DNA from: Actinomycetota bacterium
GTDB taxonomy: Bacteria; Actinomycetota; Actinomycetes; S36-B12; GCA-2699445
Length of the DNA stretch: 64,000 bases
Reading direction: 5' to 3'
Assembly (NCBI GenBank): GCA_029978705.1
Contig: JAPOIY010000003.1
Location: 45,422-109,421 of the forward strand
Below, piece after piece: positions 20,849 through 22,906 of the stretch. The position numbers and the translations under genes were made by a program. Position 1 is the stretch's first letter. Every line of letters starts with the position of its first letter. The notes beneath the pieces are model-generated. The model did no database searches, was not told where the DNA came from, and worked only from the letters and a program-made list of their open reading frames with translations.

Positions 20849-22906
20849 TCAGCCCGCCATCGGGCGGGGGGCCGCGCCCCGAGCCGCCAGCGCCCGCTCG
20901 CGGACGGCCGCGATGTCGCCGTCGGTGAAGACCCCGTTGACCCCGGAGATCGTGGCCAGTCGCATGCCGTGTTTGAGGCCGAGGCGGTAGATCTCCTTGA
21001 CCTTCTCCCACTCGATGTTGCGGCCGACCGTGTAGTTCTCGAAGCGCCCCTCGAGGGCCAGCACGATCGTCTCGGCCAGGCACGCGTACGCCACTCCGGG
21101 CGGCAGCCCGATGTCGCGCATGTGGACGTCGCCGGGTAGCCGGATCTCCCCCGACTCGACCACCAGCACGTCGGGTCGCCGGGCCACGTCCTCGGGGGAG
21201 AGGTCCAACGGCCGGGCCACGTCCGTGATCACGCATCCGGGTTTCACCTGGGTGATGTCGAGCACCCGCTTGCCCGCCCCCGACGTCGCGGTCACCACGA
21301 GATCCATCTCCGGCAGCGCGCTGTTGGGAGTGGCCGCCACGTTGACGACCGCCCGCGGGTTGTCGTCCTCGATCTCCCGCTTCAGGGCGAGCAGTTTGCC
21401 GGACTCCGGTGACACCAGCCACAATTCGTCGCAGGCCATGGCCAGCAGCCGGGCGCAGACCGAGCCGATGGCGCCCGTGGCCCCCACGACCATGGCCTTG
21501 CCCCGCAGGCGCCCCTGCTCGTCCGTCTCGGCCAGCCCGAGACGTTCGATGGCGTCGTGGGCGGCCCACAGCGCACCCGACGCGCTGTAACTGTTGCCGG
21601 TGGTGATGGGCAGGGGAGCCCGTTTCGCCACGGTCACCCCGGCGTCCCCCACCACCTTGGTGAAGGCGCCGAGCCCCATGATCTGCGCGCCGAGTTTGCG
21701 GGCGATCTCGGCGGCCGCCAGCAGGCGCCGGTAGGTGAACTCCGGGCTGTGGCTCATCAACTCCTTGGGGGTGCCACCCACCGTGATCAGCCACCCCTCC
21801 GCCTCGTCTCCGGTGGGGGAGACGATCCCCGTGACATGGCTGTACACCAACGGTGGGGCGTAGGCCAACGCCTTCTCCAGGCTGTCCATGACGAACCCGG
21901 GCGCCACCTGGGCCACCGTGTTGATCGGCTCCACCTGCCGGAAGTACTGCTGGGACAGCGGGTGGATCACGAAGGCGAAGCGGCTGCGCCTACCTCCGCC
22001 GTCGGGCCGCAGCACCCGCGGCTCGAGGTCCGCGGCGACGATCATGTCCAGCAGGTCGTCGTCGGTGAGTTCCGAGGCCCCCGCGGCCGCGAGCATCATC
22101 GCCTCGAGTACCGCTTCGTTGATCGTCTCTCCGAACGGCTGGGGCACGTCGTCGAGGACGATCGACACGCCCCGCGCCCGCAGGTCGGCCTCCCGTTCGG
22201 GGGAGATCGCCGACGAGATCACGACCTTGCCCGCCAGATGTTCGAGGTCGTAGGCCTCCAGTTCGTCGAACGTGGCGACGAGCACGTCGCAGTCGCGCAC
22301 GGCGCCGGCGATCATGACGTGGTTGAGCGCCGCGACCGGCCGCACCGGGGAGTGGGGCAGGAGTCGGGTGGGCCACCCCGCCAGCGCCGCGAACCGGTCG
22401 ATGGCCGCCGGGACCGAGTCCAGCAGCGAGGCGACGCCGTAGCGCAGGAGGGGGTCGGCGAACGTCAGGTTGGGGGTGAACTCCGTGAGGACCTTGCTGG
22501 TGCGGTAGTGGTTCATGCCGCCGAGCACCACGACGCGCGCGTTGGTGAAGAGGCCGGGGATCCCGGTCTGCGCGTGGCGCACCGTCCACTCCTGCAGGAC
22601 GTCGCGCAAGGCGTGTCCGTTCGTCACGACCCCCCCGTCGGGGTCGGCCGCGCTCATGATGCGGGCGACCGCGGCGAGGTCCCCGTCGTACCGCCCCGAC
22701 GTCCGGGCGTCCCGGACCCCCGACACCGCGATCGCGTTGGCGGTGCCCGCCCAGTCCCGCGCCAAATCGACGGCACGGTGCTCGTCGCCGTCGGTGCCGA
22801 CGCGGATGAGGTGGAAGGAGCGGTCCAGCCACCGGACCGTGGTCGCGTAGTCACGCTCAGCGGGACCCAGGCTGATGTTGATGACGGTGAGGGTGTCGGT
22901 CGTCAT
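20849..22906 (-). CDS. Two-domain protein with AAR (acyl-ACP reductase)-like C-terminal half and unassigned N-terminal half
   Basis: C-terminal half: [81 protein letters not shown], co-linear with cyanobacterial AAR motifs recalled from memory. Confidence 0.7.

Follow-up and report, generated by a model that had tools for sequence, protein, structure and literature searches.

What does an actinobacterial protein do whose C-terminal half resembles the cyanobacterial enzyme AAR and whose N-terminal half is missing from that enzyme? A sequence-only reading of the window (the whole stretch of 64,000 nucleotides analysed here) raised this question and suggested an acyl-thioester reductase or a repurposed relative. 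Translation of the window gives a single uninterrupted reading frame of 685 residues at 20849-22906 on the minus strand; the motifs quoted for it are real, and the four motif pairs on which the comparison with AAR was based proved colinear in a HMMER alignment with Synechococcus elongatus AAR (6jzq). Orthologues with 64-85% identity are carried by 16 other genomes, which excludes misassembly as the source of the fusion. The gene, its parts and its relevant neighbours are as follows.

20849..22906, minus strand: fused N-AAR protein, 685 residues (ORF translation and orthologues)
21992..22906, minus strand: N half, residues 1-305, predicted degenerate AAR-fold domain without Cys or GxxGxxG (alignment, AF2 model, Foldseek)
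20852..21991, minus strand: C half, residues 306-685 (matched part about 309-668), predicted AAR/PigE-type acyl-thioester reductase domain (profile and sequence searches, conserved motif columns)
21464..21484, minus strand: predicted NAD(P)-binding loop GATGAIG (GxxGxxG), residues 475-481, kept in 65/65 relatives
21080..21082, minus strand: codon of the predicted catalytic Cys609, kept in 65/65 relatives and aligned to the Cys of AAR and PigE
24233..25702, plus strand: wax ester synthase / DGAT (TIGR02946, PF03007/PF06974)
23026..24282, plus strand: family-4 type glycosyltransferase, divergent neighbour (synteny with the one congener)

The C half was compared with AAR and with PigE, whose N-terminal TR domain acts in the prodigiosin pathway. 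In HMMER searches, AAR matched residues 348-652 of the fusion (E=6e-15, 58 bits) and PigE (4ppm) matched residues 309-648 (E=2e-27, 99 bits); no sequence matched the entire C half better than the PigE TR domain, which has the same Cys and the same order of motifs. Cys609, the residue in YACLAE that had been equated with the active-site Cys of AAR, indeed falls on the Cys within FACFAEA (AAR) and NGCMAET (PigE). A profile built from 26 C-half family sequences recovered PigE (E=2e-62) and AAR (E=2e-45), as well as the carmabin TAD (E=1e-12) and glutamyl-tRNA reductase (E=9e-6). Against the curated models, the protein scores 178 bits with the PigE model NF053554 (cut-off 850), the match being confined to model positions up to ~353, and it lacks the fused class-III aminotransferase that goes with that equivalog; with the AAR model TIGR04058 it scores 79.5 bits, a significant match that, like the PigE score, lies far under the equivalog cut-off (449.7). 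These profile scores and E values argue that the similarity to AAR and PigE is not due to chance.

The protein thus has a Cys at the FAC(F/M)AE site, a GxxGxxG loop and a significant full-length profile match, the features by which we delimit the AAR/PigE-TR superfamily. Loss of the Cys or of the NADPH motif, or a better match to another dehydrogenase family, had been named as grounds for abandoning the assignment; instead, Cys609 and GxxGxxG are present in all 65 relatives that cover those columns, and PigE and AAR remain the best matches. GLG, TTGN, H315 and E612 are likewise invariant among the C-half relatives. Assignment of the C half as a predicted acyl-thioester reductase of the AAR superfamily is therefore well supported at the sequence level, resting on the invariant motifs, on PigE/TamH and AAR as best relatives and on the fatty alcohol/wax ester context described below, and that part of the sequence-only reading holds for the C half as a prediction of its catalysis. 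The description as cyanobacterial AAR-like is too narrow. The C half shares its fold family, Cys and NADP motif with the cyanobacterial enzyme, but by sequence it is closer to the PigE reductase domain, and also to the product of a two-gene bacterial cassette. In a maximum likelihood tree all fused C halves group in a single clade (support 100/100), which arises on a long stem from among the cassette proteins; the branches of cyanobacterial AAR and of PigE are long and unsure in placement. Reduction of a thioester to an aldehyde is reported for PigE (PMC8341465), and the TR domain of TamH converts acyl-ACP to aldehyde with NADH (PMC9594044). In both, the TR domain is fused to an aminotransferase and serves an amine pathway, whereas the C half of the window protein is fused to a predicted AAR-fold domain.

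Fused loci were found in 17 genomes scattered patchily through the Actinomycetia, nine in the order of the window and the rest in two other families of that class, of which one includes a genus of mostly high-quality genomes of ~4 Mb; many of the surveyed genomes are MAGs. Identity between fused proteins is ~64-70% within the order and just as high when those of the order are compared with those of the other families, a pattern suggestive of horizontal transfer or patchy loss. We found no literature on AAR in this order.

The N half of ~305 residues has no counterpart by sequence in the 341-residue AAR, as had been stated, and neither it nor 26 stand-alone members of its family gave a credible Pfam, NCBIfam or PDB sequence match, so that its placement in a known sequence family was rejected. 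It is, however, homologous to a widespread stand-alone family, and its predicted fold is AAR-like, at borderline TM; to that extent the domain is no longer without relatives. In a joint full-length MAFFT alignment the N rows fell onto the C half, and a separate model of the N half was therefore built. Its AF2 model (pLDDT 80) gave as best Foldseek match TAD 9e4u, with a borderline TM of 0.54, and borderline values of 0.44-0.48 with AAR (0.47-0.48 for 6jzq/6jzu). The AlphaFold model of the stand-alone N protein of Thermoanaerobacter wiegelii (pLDDT 91) matched two-domain Rossmann proteins in Foldseek, with TAD (0.53) and AAR (0.51) having the highest TM among the matches listed, again borderline. 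The TAD of the carmabin pathway (9e4u/9e4x) is thus the highest TM match of both N models and a weak match of the C-half profile; by its annotation it belongs to an amino acid adenylation (NRPS) protein, it shares ~10% identity, and our search for literature on it found none.

A profile-profile alignment of N against C (hhalign, 112 versus 66 sequences) is colinear over 229 columns, weak but above background (P=0.009), with a score of 27.4; column shuffling reached no more than 26.2, below the real score in 200/200 cases. With shallower profiles of 26 sequences each no homology was detected. The alignment pairs GLGGID with GLGAFT, VDGSGLK with TTGNSYT, SAVDRFG with GATGSIG and VMEA with MAET. 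In the N half the loop reads LGGMNHYR, so there is no Gly-rich loop, and there is no conserved Cys at the catalytic site. From the models and this alignment we read the N half as a probable degenerate AAR-fold paralogue devoid of both elements. It also diverges much faster: in 15 of 16 comparisons N halves are 45-53% identical where the C halves are 78-84% identical, and in the one congener comparison the values are 77% and 92%. Such divergence is as expected for a scaffold, which the N half probably is.

The stand-alone N homologue, of ~300 residues, occurs in deep-branching Actinomycetota; in the named collection it was found at no fewer than 556 loci, most of them from Bacillota (Thermoanaerobacter, Moorella, Caloramator, Desulfotomaculum-like bacteria, Carboxydothermus) and others from Eremiobacterota/Vulcanimicrobiota. 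Among the 47 N loci flanked on either side by 2.5 kb of sequence, 26 have an AAR-like gene on the same strand within 4 kb before or after N, the usual order being HTH regulator, N, AAR-like gene, greA, lysS. Both products are homologous to the halves of the fusion (35-43% identity for C, ~20% for N), but they are encoded by two genes, and the N protein of the pair keeps the motifs DRFG, GRSFGTN and TTTP, near-invariant in the 112 stand-alone rows and lost in fused N; DRFG and GRSFGTN are gone from all six fused N halves inspected. Its own conserved motifs make a separate function of the stand-alone N protein probable. Several genomes carry N with no AAR-like gene, and since 21 of the 47 loci (e.g. 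L084, L085, L086, L096, L104, L126 and L147) have no AAR-like gene nearby, it must also act alone or with a distant partner. Its function is unreported in any source that we found. Deep Actinomycetota also yielded what looked like fusions, at 30% identity; these were rejected as two adjacent genes read through stops. We tentatively propose, at somewhat less than even odds, that the stand-alone N and AAR-like proteins form a two-component aldehyde-generating reductase widespread in several phyla, comprised of a catalytic AAR and a conserved pseudo-AAR subunit, which was fused in Actinomycetia and recruited together with AHR (a free aldehyde reductase, see below) and WS/DGAT for fatty alcohols and wax esters. 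We thereby propose a testable function for the N family, conserved in hundreds of bacteria of which most are anaerobic, and for its AAR-like neighbour.

The genomic context points to the fate of the product. Directly upstream of the fused gene, on the same strand, 13 of 17 loci encode a NAD_binding_4 reductase of ~363 residues (AHR). AHR corresponds to positions 3-353 of PRK07201, a model that we take to cover MA-ACR, and by sequence is homologous, as a free-standing protein, to the half of FarA/MA-ACR that reduces the aldehyde. Among 167 genomes of the order, AHR (at least 57% identity) and the fusion occur in the same nine genomes and neither occurs in the other 158 (Fisher p=4e-15), and in the genus of G610 AHR is present in 4 of 5 fusion genomes and in 0 of 55 others (p=1e-5); both tests ignore shared ancestry and overstate independence, because the fusion is patchy and the genomes are related. 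Many of those 55 genomes have a full-length FarA-type frame of ~670 residues instead of AHR. In the genome of the window, AHR lies on another contig (C55), alone beside the ATP synthase operon, and G837 has the fusion and WS/DGAT with no close AHR found. A WS/DGAT gene is near the fused gene at 7 of 17 loci, including the window, where it scores 411.5 bits with TIGR02946 (cut-off 309.95), contains PF03007/PF06974 and is divergent from the fused gene, with the glycosyltransferase between them. The strict AHR pairing and the frequent nearness of WS/DGAT suggest an undescribed actinobacterial route to fatty alcohols and wax esters.

Our main reading, to which we give a probability of roughly 70%, is that the fusion is an NAD(P)H-dependent fatty-acyl-thioester reductase whose aldehyde is converted by AHR to fatty alcohol and by WS/DGAT to wax ester, with the N half as a non-catalytic partner. 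Homology, motifs, fusion, co-occurrence, synteny and predicted fold are observed or computed; from them we infer substrate, cofactor, direction, product and the role of the N half. In the proposed mechanism, Cys609 of the C half would attack acyl-ACP or acyl-CoA, the bound nucleotide would give a hydride to the acyl-enzyme, and the fatty aldehyde would be released; the separate AHR would then reduce it to the alcohol, which WS/DGAT would esterify. The N half would most likely serve as a structural partner or as a docking module for a carrier protein or partner, rather than being a further thioester reductase. The fused gene would derive from an ancestral N+C gene pair.

The aldehyde could instead feed an ether-lipid, alkane or other pathway, the nearness of WS/DGAT reflecting general clustering of lipid genes. 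WS/DGAT is near at only 7 of 17 loci and fatty alcohol has further uses, but the strict pairing with AHR points to the alcohol. ADO (PF11266), which partners the single-domain cyanobacterial AAR (acyl-ACP to aldehyde) in making alkanes, was absent from 14/14 fusion genomes tested while the S. elongatus control was positive, and the ADO-dependent alkane pathway was accordingly rejected; we regard this family of fates as unlikely. It is highly improbable that the aldehyde is aminated to a fatty or polyketide amine with no reduction to alcohol, as in the logic of PigE and TamH: a class-III aminotransferase and an SRPBCC protein do accompany the AAR-like gene at 8 of the 47 well-flanked N loci, and one Bacillota locus has an aminotransferase-AAR fusion beside N, but these loci belong to other lineages, and at the fused loci AHR and WS/DGAT are found and no recurrent aminotransferase neighbour, so that such a partner was rejected. 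Equally improbable is a C half repurposed as a dehydrogenase for a non-lipid semialdehyde or thioester, or working in the oxidative direction, for which the scores under both curated cut-offs and weak Pfam matches to semialdehyde and shikimate dehydrogenase domains could speak, since the AAR catalytic motifs are all invariant and the genomic partners are lipid enzymes.

Returning to the reading as a fatty-acyl-thioester reductase, a close functional parallel is FarA/MA-ACR (PRK07201), which performs the two-step chemistry proposed for the fusion and AHR and whose N-terminal domain is homologous to AHR. In MA-ACR, the N-terminal domain reduces the aldehyde and the C-terminal domain the thioester, with the crossover at residue 350-360 (PMC8492656). 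Its thioester-reductase half is an SDR domain, in whose place the fusion system has an AAR-type enzyme; fusion and AHR would thus rebuild the two-step fatty acyl reductase (AHR+ATR) with the SDR-type ATR half replaced. We propose that bacteria thereby have a second natural layout for making fatty alcohols, an AAR-type thioester reductase with a free AHR as opposed to the single FarA polypeptide. In biofuel work, converting acyl-ACP to alcohol is a known bottleneck (PMC8492656).

Several further observations were made at these loci. In G058 (C87:14006-14954), a MAG, the AHR upstream of the fusion is in two pieces, by pseudogene formation or assembly error. The Bacillota locus L153:5989-11325 encodes N, then the aminotransferase-AAR fusion in the order of TamH and a second class-III aminotransferase, and is a possible relative of prodiginine/tambjamine-type amine formation. 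Long PigE/TamH-like proteins with an AAR-like part occur sporadically in other Actinomycetia (L068:7670-10336, G597 and G836). In one deep actinobacterial lineage, tandem N genes lie upstream of the AAR-like gene (L051:8980-10928, L092:4961-6909). An HTH protein of ~200 residues that lacks a Pfam/NCBIfam family (L053:8875-9495 and homologues) overlaps or adjoins the beginning of N at roughly half of the loci and is a candidate dedicated regulator. In the window itself, the product of 18110-19837 on the plus strand combines a long N-terminal extension with a DNA/RNA non-specific endonuclease domain (PF01223); its gene adjoins one for a tRNA-synthetase class I (W/Y).
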